Assembly: GCA_025060325.1 (NCBI GenBank)
Contig: JANXBW010000037.1
Span: forward strand, 1 to 37,179
DNA length: 37,179 nucleotides
Direction of reading: 5' to 3'
Source of the DNA: Thermoguttaceae bacterium
GTDB lineage: Bacteria > Planctomycetota > Planctomycetia > Pirellulales > Thermoguttaceae
Below, piece after piece: positions 3,773 through 16,029 of the stretch. The notes beneath the pieces are model-generated. The model did not search any database, was not told the DNA's origin, and saw only the letters and a program-made list of their open reading frames with translations. Both the position numbers and the translations under genes were made by a program. Numbering within the stretch: position 1 is the first letter of the stretch; each line of letters begins with the position of its first letter.

Positions 3773-5545
3773 TCAACCAGTAAAGTACAGGTAAGCACCG
3801 ACGATCACCGCAATCACCACAAGCGACGCCAAGACGTCCCAGGCATTCCAGCTTGCCCGGCTTTGCCGCCGCTGCTCCTCTGTGACCGTGGCGAAGGTAA
3901 GGCCTTCGATCTGGGAGGGCGAAGGGGGTGGGGTCAGATAGCTAACCACAATCATCACGCCCAGGGAAATCAGGAATACCAGGAGACTATAGTACTGGAA
4001 ATAAATGTTGTTGATAATCCACAGGATCGAGCCAGGCGTGTATCCGTTTTCAAAGCCGGGCAGCTTTAGGCTCACTGGCGTGTCCACAGCAAGCCGAAGG
4101 ACGCCCAGGGCAAACCCGACGATAAGGGCCGCCAGGCATCCGGCCCCATTGAGCCGCTTCATAAACACCCCGAAGAAAAACACCACAAAGATCGGAGGTG
4201 CCAAGTACGCCTGTACAGACTGCAGATAGTCGTAAAGCCCCCGGGCATTCTGGATGACCGGTATCCACGCGAGGCCGATAAGCACCATGACAGTCGTGGC
4301 GATTCGTCCCATCCACACGAGCTGCCGCTCGCTAGCCTCCGGCCGGAACTTGCGATAGACGTCAATAGTAAACAGTGTGGAACTGGCATTAAAAACACCT
4401 GCCAGAGAGCTCATCAAAGCAGCCAACAAGCCGGCCACGACGACGCCTCGCAGCCCGATCGGCAGCACATGGGCTACCATTAGGGGAAAGGCCGCTTGAC
4501 AGCGATCCGGAATGGCCTTGCCCGCGGGATCCACGAGGTGGCCCAGTGCCGGCACCTTCCCCGAAACTGCAAGGCCATAGCAAATCATCCCAGGGATGAT
4601 GAAGATGAAAACGGGCAGCAACTTCAGGTAGGCAGCAAAGATTGATCCACGGCGGGCTTCCCGCTCGTTAGGTGCTCCGAGTGCTCGCTGCACAATGTAT
4701 TGATCGGTACACCAATACCACAGGCCAATAATGGGAGCACAAAAGAGCATTCCCAACCACGGGTAGTTGGTGTTGAAGTACCAGGCAATTCGCCCTGGTT
4801 CTTTCACAGGGGCCCACGTGCCTTCCATGCCAGGTGGGACCAAGGGCTTCCAAAGGTTGAACATCTCCGAGGGGACAATCCGGCGAAATTCTCCCCAACC
4901 GCCAATTTCAATAAGACCAAAGATCGTTACAAGGGTAGAACCGACGATGAGGATGATCGTCTGGACGGCCTCGGTGTAAGCGACAGCCCGCAGCCCTCCG
5001 AGTACCGTGTACAAGCCCGTAAGCAGAATAACGACAACCGACCCTACCCAAAAGCTATCTAGGACAAAGCCTCCTAAGTCCACCTGGACCTCGGGGAGTA
5101 ACGTACTAAAGACAATTCCTCCAGCGAAAATCCCCACTGCAATCTTGGTTAAAATGTATGCAAACAATGAGATAATCGACAGTACCCATCGTGCCGTCGC
5201 GTTGTACCGTTTTTCCAAAAACTCCGGCATCGTAAACACCCGGGATCGGGCATAAAAGGGAATCATCACCCAGGCCAGCACTAGTAAACACCAGGCGTGG
5301 AGCTCGTAGTGAGCCATGGCCACACCGTCCGTGCATCCAGAGCCAGCCAGGCCTACAAGATGTTCCGAGCCGATGTTGGAAGAAAAGATCGACGCACCGA
5401 CAATAAGCCAGCCCAGATTTCGGCCGGCCAAAAAATAATCGTCGGCCGTCTCTTTTCCTTTAAGAATCACCCACCAGGCAATGGCCAACAGAAGCGCGAA
5501 ATAACCTGCGATCACAAGCCAGTCGATGGTTCCCAGTGTGCTCAT
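3773..5545 (-). CDS. Sodium/solute symporter (SSS family, SGLT-like)
   Basis: This is an inner-membrane transporter of the solute:sodium symporter family, 590 aa, with many hydrophobic segments consistent with about 14 helices. The N-terminal helix (IDWLVIAGYFALLLAIAWW) is followed by KGKETADDYFLAGRNLGW and by SSNIGSEHLVGLAGSG, the conserved SGLT-like block where substrate and sodium bind. TMPEFLEKRYN and the RALGAPNEREARRG loop are also typical of sugar-transporting members. The start has a strong GGGGAGG site 5 bases upstream. It lies directly upstream of the sulfatase on the same strand, so it may import the desulfated sugar released outside the cell. Galactose/glucose-type substrates are likely by family, but the actual solute cannot be read from sequence. 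Confidence 0.93.
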   Translation of the reverse strand: MSTLGTIDWLVIAGYFALLLAIAWWVILKGKETADDYFLAGRNLGWLIVGASIFSSNIGSEHLVGLAGSGCTDGVAMAHYELHAWCLLVLAWVMIPFYARSRVFTMPEFLEKRYNATARWVLSIISLFAYILTKIAVGIFAGGIVFSTLLPEVQVDLGGFVLDSFWVGSVVVILLTGLYTVLGGLRAVAYTEAVQTIILIVGSTLVTIFGLIEIGGWGEFRRIVPSEMFNLWKPLVPPGMEGTWAPVKEPGRIAWYFNTNYPWLGMLFCAPIIGLWYWCTDQYIVQRALGAPNEREARRGSIFAAYLKLLPVFIFIIPGMICYGLAVSGKVPALGHLVDPAGKAIPDRCQAAFPLMVAHVLPIGLRGVVVAGLLAALMSSLAGVFNASSTLFTIDVYRKFRPEASERQLVWMGRIATTVMVLIGLAWIPVIQNARGLYDYLQSVQAYLAPPIFVVFFFGVFMKRLNGAGCLAALIVGFALGVLRLAVDTPVSLKLPGFENGYTPGSILWIINNIYFQYYSLLVFLISLGVMIVVSYLTPPPSPSQIEGLTFATVTEEQRRQSRASWNAWDVLASLVVIAVIVGAYLYFTG

Positions 5546-6512
5546 CAGTACCTCCCCAGATGTGACACTTGACGATTGATGAAATCAGCCTTTATTGACA
5601 GCGGGGCAACCGTAGTTGGGATTCGAACAAGATGGGTTCTGGAAAGCTTGGCTTGAGTGTTAGCTGCACTTGTTGGCGTGTTGCAGCTTCCCCACTTTGG
5701 CCAAGAAGTTTTTCCGAGTCCTGCCGGCCTTCCCCACCGCCAATTCCTGTGGGAAGATTTCCCGACAAATCGCTTAAGGTCGGGCCGAGACTTTCGATCC
5801 CGCGGGAAGTCGGGGCAGGAGCTTGCCGGCCGGGACGCGCCAGGAAAGTAGCCTAAGATATTAATCAGGAACCTTAAACGCATAAAGCCGGTCCCGCATT
5901 CCAAGGGCCGGGAGCTTAAAGGTTTCTCGTTGGCTGCCACCCCGGCTGGCTTCTCATGAAGTGGTCAACAAGAAGGAAGCTTCGTGGGAGGAGCTCTTTC
6001 ACCGGAAGGTTGGGGGCGGTTTGGGGGAGGGGGTGGGTTTTCGTTCGGGAGTTCCTCTATCGGACTTTTTGTCCGTAACGCGGGGACCGGAGGGGAGCAC
6101 TCCCCGGCAATCGGGCCACTGCGGCTGGAAGCGTCTCGGCTCGTGCAGTAGCCTTCATAGCGGGGTTGTGGCCGGCGAAAGGCGACAAGAGGGAAGCTGC
6201 CCTGTATCAGTCGCCCGGCTTCGTTTCGGCCAGCTGGGGGCCGGCGTGTCAGTAGGTTTACAGGCCCAATGGGTGTCATAAGGATTCCGGAGAGGCGGCG
6301 GGGAAGTTTGGCCGGCCAGTGAAGGGGCCCTCGCAGCATGTTTGTTTGCATAGCAGAAAAGCCTCAGTTAACGGTCTGGACGATTCGATCCCATTTCGTC
6401 GTTGGAGGCCCGCAAGGCGGTAGTCGCCGAATGTACCGGCCGGGGCGAAAGCACCGTGAGGAGCGGGATTGCGGTTGCCGACAAGTGGCCGATGGCTGAC
6501 CGGACCCATTAG
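5546..6512. other. Intergenic region between divergent symporter and ABC genes
   Basis: No gene is supported in this 967-base divergent region. It should contain the symporter promoter (minus strand) and the ABC ATPase promoter (plus strand), but no clear -35/-10 pair was recognised. Open frames here have a skewed composition with no motif. A GATTCGAAC string near 5620 resembles a tRNA T-loop, but the flanking stems do not pair. Confidence 0.4.
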
Positions 6513-14059: not shown

Positions 14060-14721
14060 GCTTTTTCAGTGGTACCAAGATTTCGTAGATGGCCAAACGC
14101 TGATTCTGTCCGGATCTTCGTGGATGAGAGCTGGTGGGTGAACCAACCGGAATATCAACATGACTATGGGGCCACGTGTGCCGGCGAGATATCTCTCCCC
14201 AAAAAAGAGCCCCAGAAGCGGGAAGCCGCCATGAGGATGATCGCCCGCAATGCCTGGCGAATCTTCGGGCAATCGGCGCACTGGTGGCTCTGAAGGAAAT
14301 AACGAAGCCGGACTTGGAGGCGATGGGGCAGGAGAGCGGTCGCATATGCGGTAGAGTTTGCCGGGAAAACCCCCGGAAGCTTGGTCATCCACAGACGCTT
14401 CTAGGTAGCAAGCTCGGTGCCCGCTGGGAATTTCATGTATCGGATAGTTCGGGCCTTATCGGCTGGCGAGGTTTTTGGCGATCGTTTGCGAACCCTTTTG
14501 GTTTTTCTCCGACTCGGGGCTCATCACGTGGGCTCCTCGGACGGCTTCAATTGTTGCGCGGTCGCCGGCATCTAAGTGGGATCGGTGAACATTCGGGCCA
14601 GCGCGGATGAAACTTCTTTCGCCTGGAAGCGAGGATTGCCGGAGCGTCTGGATCATTCCTCACCAAATGGCCACCATTACCACCAGTAGTGCCAAGGTGG
14701 CAAGGAGTGTCACGGACGGAC
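14060..14721. other. Gene-poor region before the repeat array
   Basis: No gene is supported. Overlapping frames on both strands (for example 14176-14610 plus) have no motif and no ribosome binding site. If the array beyond is a CRISPR relic, any leader could lie here or on the other side, but no AT-rich leader is apparent. Confidence 0.35.
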
Positions 14722-14997
14722 GAGCTTCCTCCCGTGGACGGGGGTGCCAGGGAACCGGCGGGGCCGTAACTGGCAGCCACCCCACCGCTCTCCCGTGGAC
14801 GGGGGTACCGGATTCCGCCGGCGTGGTGGCGATGATTCGTAGCCGGCTCCCTCGCGTAGACGGGGGTACCGCCGAGCGGGCCAACGGGAAAATGTGTCAG
14901 GAACCCAGCTCCCTCCCGTGGACGGGGCTACGATTACAAACCTGGTACGCCCCATCAGCCAAGAAAATAGTTCCTCCCGGAGGACGAGGGTACCACA
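14722..14997. CRISPR. Relic CRISPR-like array, type I-E-like repeats
   Basis: Five copies of CCCGTGGACGGGGGTACC or close variants have cores starting at 14731, 14792, 14853, 14915 and 14976, giving periods of 61, 61, 62 and 61 bases. Copy 2 matches this core exactly; copy 1 differs at 1 base, copies 3 and 4 at 2, and copy 5 has a substitution and an indel. Most copies are preceded by GCTCCCT or a similar sequence. The core holds the inverted repeat CCCGT-GG-ACGGG. Intervening segments are unrelated to each other. A 28-29 base hairpin repeat with 32-33 base spacers is the type I-E geometry, and the sequence resembles type I-E repeats. The variation between copies and the absence of cas genes suggest a dead array. 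The period is not a multiple of 3, which argues against a coding repeat. Confidence 0.6.
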
Positions 14998-15464
14998 CCA
15001 CCTCCCGAGCAATAATCAACGGGGCAAGTTGCCAGGCCACTCTCCTCGAAGGTGCGCGAGGGCAACCGCAAGCCCGGGATCCCTAACGCCCTGACCTCCT
15101 GGACCGTCCCCTCGATGCTCCCTAGCACCCTCACCAACAAATACTCGCACTCTGGAATCTCCAGCGGCTTGGGCGCAGAGGTTCGTCCGATCCTCCGAGT
15201 TCCCTTTGCCACTTCCAGGACCACGTAAACCTCAAACGGGAGGTGGGAATTGAACTGTCGGGCGGGGTAGGGCTTCCTCCCGGGTGCCGCAGGGGAGGCG
15301 GCCGGGGCAACTGCTGCCGGCTGGGAAGTAACCGTCACTATCGCTCCCGCTTGTCTTGAGGGTGGCTTGCCGGCCCAATCTTTCGTTTTCTTGCCGGATC
15401 CTGAGGGAGAGCATCCCACGGCCAACACCTCCCCCCAAATCACTCCGATCAGTGGGCTTTTCAT
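14955..15464 (-). CDS. Small putative lipoprotein, 3' end overlapping the repeat array
   Basis: This 169-aa predicted lipoprotein has no family I recognise. The start at 15464 has GGAGGGGAAGGA just upstream, the best site in the frame. The N-terminus (MKSPLIGVIWGEVLAVGC) ends in a lipobox-like AVGC (Cys18), although the hydrophobic stretch is short and contains a Glu. A low-complexity Ala/Pro/Ser linker (about 40-62) leads to a better-folded part, FEVYVVLEVAKGTRR and EYLLVRVLGSIEGTVQEV (about 77-125). The last 15 or so residues lie within the fifth array repeat, so the original C-terminus may have been lost. The longer frame to 15686 has no support. It could be a truncated gene. Confidence 0.55.
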   Translation of the reverse strand: MKSPLIGVIWGEVLAVGCSPSGSGKKTKDWAGKPPSRQAGAIVTVTSQPAAVAPAASPAAPGRKPYPARQFNSHLPFEVYVVLEVAKGTRRIGRTSAPKPLEIPECEYLLVRVLGSIEGTVQEVRALGIPGLRLPSRTFEESGLATCPVDYCSGGGVVPSSSGRNYFLG

Positions 15465-16029
15465 ACACTGTCCTTCCCCTCCGCTGATGGCACCTGCCCG
15501 GAATGTTATCCCGCGCTTCAAAACAGGTAGCAATCCCGCCGAGAATCGAAGAGGCATCGGCACATATGTGAATGCAGGTCGAAGAGCGCCGGCTTCCCGG
15601 ATCAACCCGCGGTCGAAGTCCCGACCAGCCGCTACTGATGGATTCCTTGCCAACACCCCCGCTTTTATGCCACCGTCAACCCCCATTGTGCTGGGGGACC
15701 TGTCCTACTCAATGGGCCCGGGGCGGCCCTCAGGCGGGAACCGTATGGCGGCAAATACCGCCACTCGGGAAGGATAGCCCAAGCAGCTGAACTTGATATC
15801 GCCGAAAAAAAGCTCGACCCTTCTCTATGACTTCTACGAGCAACCCGCTTGGCGCTACACTTCCGTTGTGGAGCTACTTAGCGGCGGGTGCTCCAGGCAC
15901 TGTGGCCAGCTGTGGGCTGGGTAGCACGATGGGCGATGTTGGCTCGTGACAGTTGGCTTGTTTCAGTGGGCTTACGGTCCGGGGCAGAACCCGTCCGGGC
16001 GGTCGATCTTATGGATCTTTATCATCCAC

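Follow-up and report, generated by a model that had tools for sequence, protein, structure and literature searches.

Type I-E adaptation by Cas1-Cas2 leaves a characteristic product, a 28-bp target that is duplicated together with ~33 bp of new DNA, in the same orientation. Nivala, Shipman and Church reportedly found in 2018 that Cas1-Cas2 can insert spacers at chromosomal sites outside arrays, with the target duplicated as new repeats, and they are said to have pointed out putative natural cases of such neo-CRISPR in Yersinia pestis and Sulfolobus islandicus. In the accessible part of PMC11788318, which cites Nivala et al. 2018, overexpressed Cas1-Cas2 is described as integrating at non-array places of the genome, the off-target integration of the same study is also cited in the accessible part of PMC9456107, and in vitro integration at repeat-like sequences outside arrays is described in that of PMC8047081. 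The origin of new arrays and of new repeat sequences is an open question, arrays usually being observed only once they exist, and none of the papers among the literature matches listed describes a natural array of several spacers whose repeat goes back to the codons of a gene.

An array in the genome of a Thermoguttaceae bacterium is probably a fossil neo-CRISPR that was born when the type I-E system integrated spacers off-target, within a gene, and that later decayed. The window analyzed here, 37,179 nucleotides long, is one whole contig (C30) of this 4.78-Mb genome, which is assembled in 89 contigs. The array (14721-14994) consists of five repeat copies of 28 nt each on the plus strand, with the GGAC cores at positions 14736, 14797, 14858, 14920 and 14982, that is, with the spacing of 61, 61, 62 and 62; the edges of the 28-mers are accurate to about one base. 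Copy 1 (14721-14748) is continuous on its left side with a gene remnant and is followed by spacer 1 (14749-14781, 33 nt), the internal copies 2 (14782-14809), 3 (14843-14870) and 4 (14905-14932) are separated by spacer 2 (14810-14842, 33 nt) and spacer 3 (14871-14904, 34 nt), and spacer 4 (14933-14966, 34 nt) leads to copy 5 (14967-14994), the most diverged one, which is continuous with the gene remnant on its right side; all these features are given on the plus strand.

The first-pass annotation had listed five recurring repeats with unrelated sequence between them, and both parts of this description hold. Compared as 28-mers, the copies have 17-23 of the 28 letters in common in all 10 pairs, a level that none of 200 shuffles equals for any pair, and the four inserts are mutually unrelated, with all six pairs falling within the range of 500 shuffles. 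The spacing given at the time, 61, 61, 62 and 61, is accurate for the first three intervals, the last one measuring 62 because copy 5 carries a one-base shift. The divergence of the repeats is likewise real: copies 1-4 share 22-23 letters with each other and only 17-18 with copy 5, in contrast to the near-identical repeats of a type I-E array, and with the copies being 61-82% identical, the history of the array is blurred. The type I-E-like geometry, that is, a period of ~61 made of a 28-nt repeat and an unrelated spacer, is borne out as well and equals that of the host's own array (28 + 33 = 61).

Two other features that had been attributed to the array do not stand up. Hairpin formation, taken for a distinctive trait of the repeats, is not apparent in comparison with shuffled sequences (z between -1.44 and +0.98 for the five copies, none of them below -1.5, against -3.21 for the host I-E repeat), and near position 15037, where a sixth, weaker copy had been suspected, the best score ranks only 578th among the 28-mers of the window. 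Copy 5 itself ranks sixth in a consensus scan of the window, with one unrelated place just above it; by sequence alone, this copy is indistinguishable from chance and is recognized only through its register and gene context. A search of the whole 4.78-Mb genome with a 19-nt core and up to 3 mismatches gives four matches, all in the array (copies 1-4), compared with one for the reversed-pattern control, and a shifted core gives three more, scattered matches with 3 mismatches, a number that its reversed control equals. No other array with this repeat is found in the genome, nor in a further 395 genomes of the order when up to 2 mismatches are allowed; nine of these genomes contain one match each, and the reversed control matches in 20. 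Within the window, there are neither Rfam matches at gathering thresholds nor tRNA genes.

The array lies inside a remnant of the 3' part of a gene (14618-15061, minus strand), which corresponds to residues 469-534 of a 566-aa intact homolog that the same genome encodes on contig 19 (L013 31-1731). A tblastn comparison of the contig-19 protein, for which there is no Pfam match, with the window yields two pieces: 14618-14758 on the minus strand, equivalent to residues 488-534 (57%, with one TGA), within which copy 1 lies, and 14972-15061 on the minus strand, equivalent to residues 469-498 (60%), which overlaps copy 5. Residues 488-498 are doubly covered, by copy 1 and by copy 5, and these doubly covered residues are the repeat. 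Independently, blastn matches 14640-14749 to contig 19 and 14982-15035 to G001, a sister genome of the same genus. In one frame of the minus strand, the remnant reads WQLAPLIIAREVVWYPRPPGG, followed by the array and then by WHPRPREEARPSVTLLATLALLVVMVAIW*GM; the intact gene on contig 19 reads WQLAPLIIGRDLVWHPRPPEGAGPWVTLLATLVFLVVLFAIWWGM and the 556-aa gene in G001 reads WQLAPLIIARDVVWLPRPRGGAGPWVTLLATLVMVIVLVAIWWGM. An in-frame TGA in the remnant occupies the place where the intact homologs have WW. Upstream of residue 469, the homology to the intact gene stops, and a 243-aa open frame with no Pfam match (14955-15686, minus strand) enters the remnant and copy 5 out of frame; this frame is probably a neighboring gene, with its 3' end abutting the remnant. 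Taken together, the loss of homology and the abutting frame indicate that only a broken piece from the 3' part of the gene remains.

The two intact relatives carry the 'repeat' once and free of spacers, as codons for W-x-P-R-P-x-x-G-A-G, and thus preserve an empty site. When the array is collapsed so that only one copy is kept, be it copy 1 or copy 5, the remnant can be aligned with each of the intact genes and no gap is needed at this site. The contig-19 protein is matched in 51 of 60 related genomes. In the comparison of 60 relatives with the 1101-bp query, no more than 7 candidates per genome were scored. Among 34 aligned family loci, four of which (L060-L063) duplicate contigs already counted, 32 have an alignment through the site with no more than 9 inserted residues nearby, including two (L052 and L054) that align only via a neighboring paralog; the remaining two, L035 and L039, have no alignment through the site.

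In the gene frame, on the minus strand, copies 1-5 read HPRPREEA, YPRPRESG, YPRLREGA, *PRPREGA and YPRPPGGT, respectively. When each copy is compared with all 28-mers on both strands of both intact genes, all five copies score best at one and the same site of the contig-19 gene, with copy 5 tied with another place and copy 2 one point ahead; in the G001 gene, four of the five rank first at the site and copy 5 ranks second. The internal copies 2-4 provide the critical test of gene origin because they touch no gene flank. Their consensus scores 28 at the contig-19 site and 32 at the G001 site, as the best of four offsets, and these scores are equalled by one and none, respectively, of 307,812 sampled background windows. 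The collinearity with a single site and the match of the internal copies imply that four rounds of duplication copied a 28-nt segment of the gene and added ~33 nt of new DNA in each round.

These observations weigh against two explanations under which the resemblance to the gene would be fortuitous. The geometry, the unrelated spacers, the diverged copies and the orphan position would all fit the decayed remains of a conventional type I-E array, perhaps one with the repeat of a lost second I-E system, but such a coincidence is very unlikely given that the repeat and both flanks are collinear with one site of one gene, that the score of the internal copies is almost never reached in the background, and that a second array with this repeat is seen neither in the genome nor in the 395 others at up to 2 mismatches. 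Import of a foreign CRISPR array by homologous recombination, with a repeat resembling the gene by chance, would likewise leave repeat copies at both gene flanks; this scenario is harder still to credit because the donor repeat would have to equal the codons of the gene, with none detected in the same set of genomes at the same threshold, and the internal copies 3 and 4 retain the gene-like REGA. With the repeat being the coding sequence of the gene around the array rather than a decayed host repeat, the locus looks like a neo-array and not like the remains of a regular CRISPR locus, so that the initial label is right about the type I-E-like geometry and misses the origin of the repeat.

The extent of the duplicated segment bears on a third explanation. 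Between copy 1 and each of copies 2-5, 18-23 of 28 letters agree, whereas the left 28-nt flanks of copies 2-5 share 9, 5, 5 and 5 of 28 with the left flank of copy 1; for the right flanks of copies 1-4, the agreement with the right flank of copy 5 is 13, 3, 7 and 7 of 28, where 13 is above expectation. The homology is accordingly bounded at ~28 nt, which is the length of the host I-E repeat (28 nt). The inserts are no closer to the gene than shuffled sequences are (eight of eight tests, lowest fraction 0.11), and because they are unlike each other and unlike the gene, the locus is no plain tandem duplication. A related explanation dispenses with CRISPR enzymes: a 61-bp unit of the gene would have been multiplied by slippage or unequal crossing-over, and the parts between the repeats would have diverged afterwards. 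The head-to-tail arrangement of the repeats within a decaying gene, the total insert of 246 bp, a multiple of three, and the 13 letters common to the right flanks of copies 1 and 5 are all compatible with such a history. Nevertheless, it appears improbable: the inserts show no resemblance to each other or to the gene while the repeats are 61-82% identical, neutral decay would not obliterate the insert part of a unit and leave its repeat part recognizable, and the unit length is the period of the host I-E array. Furthermore, because 61 is not a multiple of three, such units would not form a repeat at the protein level.

In agreement with the first-pass annotation, no cas gene came to light in the window: the searches for Cas1 (PF01867) and Cas7e (PF09344) give no match on this contig, and a Pfam scan of 10 of its frames shows no cas gene among them. 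In the genome, Cas1 is matched only on contigs 7 and 36, and Cas7e only on contig 7. The search for cas3 and Cascade genes that the annotation had suggested was fruitful, revealing on contig 7 a complete type I-E operon that encodes, in a row, Cas3, Cse1, Cse2, a PF08798 protein that we take to belong to the Cas6e family, Cas7e, Cas5, Cas1 and Cas2, all eight recognized by Pfam. The five operon proteins scanned with PADLOC (Cas3, Cas8e, Cas7e, Cas1 and Cas2) all match I-E models; for Cas2, the general Cas2 model is the best match and Cas2e is the next one. The adaptation genes, Cas1 and Cas2, are present as open frames in the genome that harbors the array. Behind the operon lie two full 28-nt repeats and, at the contig end, the beginning of a third one, with a 33-nt spacer and a period of 61. 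Two copies of the same repeat are located at the end of contig 24, and a lone degenerate copy lies ~600 bp past them, with other DNA in between (G000 contig 24, L029 about 5920-5955), as if the old end of the array had been split by something. Near the end of contig 36 (L010, G000 contig 36:18000-26681), there is a Cas10-type (type III) locus that has a Cas1 of its own; in one frame of this locus (5096-5752), the start resembles a cold-shock domain.

The I-E system is not confined to this genome. Cas2 of the I-E family PF09707 was detected in G001 and G002, two of the five genomes searched; in G002, a repeat closely related to that of the host occurs three times with a spacing of 61 (contig 102), and in G001, it occurs once, at a contig end. 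In all three genomes of the genus, a gene of the RNase_H_2 family (PF13482) is located between cas2 and the array (L009 11822-12655, L114 4133-4981 and L115 234-1055) and overlaps the cas2 frame in at least two. For the G000 protein, PADLOC gives a weak DEDDh match (E 2e-4), which suggests that this protein might be an exonuclease that trims prespacers.

The repeat of the window array is distinct from that of the co-resident I-E system. The window consensus shares 12 of 28 letters with the host I-E repeat in an ungapped comparison (P 0.07 against shuffles and 0.04 against genome 28-mers; gapped P 0.053) and 11 of 28 with the G002 repeat (P 0.14 and 0.08, respectively), so that the host repeat is unsupported as the direct parent of the window repeat. 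The site in the contig-19 gene shares at most 9 of 28 letters with the host repeat, which is chance level. Scans with the host repeat put the site at rank 32 of the 3348 windows of the contig-19 gene and at rank 75 of the 3532 windows of the G001 gene, in the latter case in the opposite orientation; when the window is scanned, the highest-scoring place within the array region has rank 142 and falls inside a spacer. Because of this weak likeness, the choice of the target is unexplained by repeat similarity alone.

Under birth of the array by off-target integration, the reading that we favor, the cell's own type I-E Cas1-Cas2 integrase would have taken a stretch of 28 bp close to the 3' end of the gene for a CRISPR repeat. 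In the first integration, both ends of the stretch would be cut and a prespacer of ~33 nt inserted, and filling of the gaps would place the 28-bp stretch on both sides of the insert. The duplicated stretch could then serve as the repeat for three further integrations, giving five repeats and four spacers, after which the array would have decayed along with the gene remnant. We infer that Cas1-Cas2 was the agent of this process from the product itself, together with the presence of the operon. Because the intact homologs of the gene preserve the insert-free site, the starting sequence is known, and hence the target length, the register and the probable direction of growth can be read. If the polarity of the host array applies, the array grew from the side of copy 1, which would be the newest and leader-proximal copy, and copy 5 would be the oldest and leader-distal one, in accord with its status as an outlier among the repeats. 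At present, the array probably has no function.

The inserts may be foreign DNA, as expected of spacers. Comparison of the four spacers with 50,697 phage and 72,556 plasmid records gives no significant match (best E 3), with the decay of the sequences limiting the power of this search, so that the check on phages and plasmids proposed in the first-pass annotation came back empty. Eight half-spacer scans of IMG/VR, in which exact seeds are weak given the decay, return 48 places with a best whole-spacer identity of 25 of 33 or 34; outside the seed, these places match at 27% on average, which points to chance. When spacers 1 and 2 and spacers 3 and 4, each pair with the intervening repeat, were searched against 20 relatives, only short matches appeared at E up to 1, in 18 of the 20 genomes for the first pair and in 12 for the second. 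The best non-self E values are 0.011 for spacers 1 and 2, where the match is mostly on the repeat, and 0.028 for spacers 3 and 4, where it covers 18 nt of spacer 3. An 18-nt match of spacer 2 to contig 7 of G001 (E 0.7) is taken as chance because many genomes give similar matches.

A second locus of a related kind is found on the same contig of the sister genome (G001 contig 7:124375-124689; L131 1876-2190), after a 509-aa frame that, judging by its motif, we take to encode a GGDEF-like protein. Here, three different 28-nt repeats, A, B and C, occur within ~330 bp: C twice at a distance of 61, B three times at 61 and 61, and A twice at 183, that is, 61 plus two B units. Repeat B is made up of the final 20 nt of the A spacer and the initial 8 nt of A, and by straddling this spacer-repeat junction, it indicates that two spacers were taken up at a register other than that of the A repeat. 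In ungapped comparison with the three native repeats, C shares 15-16 of 28 letters (P 0.0005-0.003) and B 14-15 of 28 (P 0.002-0.006), and A is at chance level, with 7-8 of 28. When the 601-bp region is compared with G000, G001 and G002, no other copy appears, the remaining matches being 18-25 nt long. Spacer integration that was off-register or off-target appears to have shaped the locus, which could represent a decayed second array with integrations out of register, C and A being alike by eye, or else several neo-arrays.

A survey of duplications provides a rough control, given that its 137 sequences (0.8 Mb) overlap in many cases and were chosen for other reasons. Among duplications with at least 22 of 28 letters in common at distances of 40-100, the distribution peaks at 61 (45 entries), followed by 62 (12) and 84 (8). 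The places behind the peak at 61 are the native arrays, the window array, the G001 locus and one AT-rich tandem repeat; the pair in L063 with a period of 61 consists of AT-rich tandem repeats and is not an array. Whether the I-E adaptation machinery of this genus repeatedly founds arrays from sequences unlike its own repeat, as in the window gene and on contig 7 of G001, is an evenly balanced proposition. If it does, CRISPR arrays, along with new repeat sequences, could arise de novo in nature.

If the proposed origin of the window array is right, it represents the natural, multi-step birth of an array within coding DNA and suggests that integration at an off-target site can continue over successive events instead of remaining a single accident. 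The genus would then be suited for testing the target preference of the type I-E integrase, and some orphan loci annotated as 'relic arrays' may be neo-arrays with a repeat foreign to the host system.

The locus thus works like a CRISPR array made by Cas1-Cas2 and yet falls outside the canonical I-E arrays by the identity of its repeat, its lack of a stable hairpin and its context. With the canonical arrays of the genus (contigs 7 and 24 of the host and contig 102 of G002), it has in common the 28-nt repeat, the 33-nt spacer and the period of 61, but the repeat is a different one that forms no significant hairpin, the copies are diverged and no adjoining cas genes were found. The ectopic acquisition in CRISPR1 and CRISPR3 of Streptococcus thermophilus is similar in that integration occurs away from the leader end; as described in the accessible part of PMC7999890, those events stay within a canonical array, whereas the window site had no prior array. 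The ectopic repeats of CreTA are, likewise, degenerate CRISPR-like repeats outside arrays; by the description in the accessible part of PMC9458426, with which the comparison is made, they mostly comprise one or two repeats and are linked to a toxin, in contrast to the five gene-derived repeats of the window array. Compared with the off-target integration of Nivala et al., the window array contains four successive spacers, is old and decayed, and has a target that resembles the native repeat only slightly; furthermore, this target lies in a protein-coding sequence, found via its intact homologs, and the host is from a different group of bacteria. Off-target integration as such is already known, and what is new here is a natural array with four spacers that is traced to the codons of a gene.
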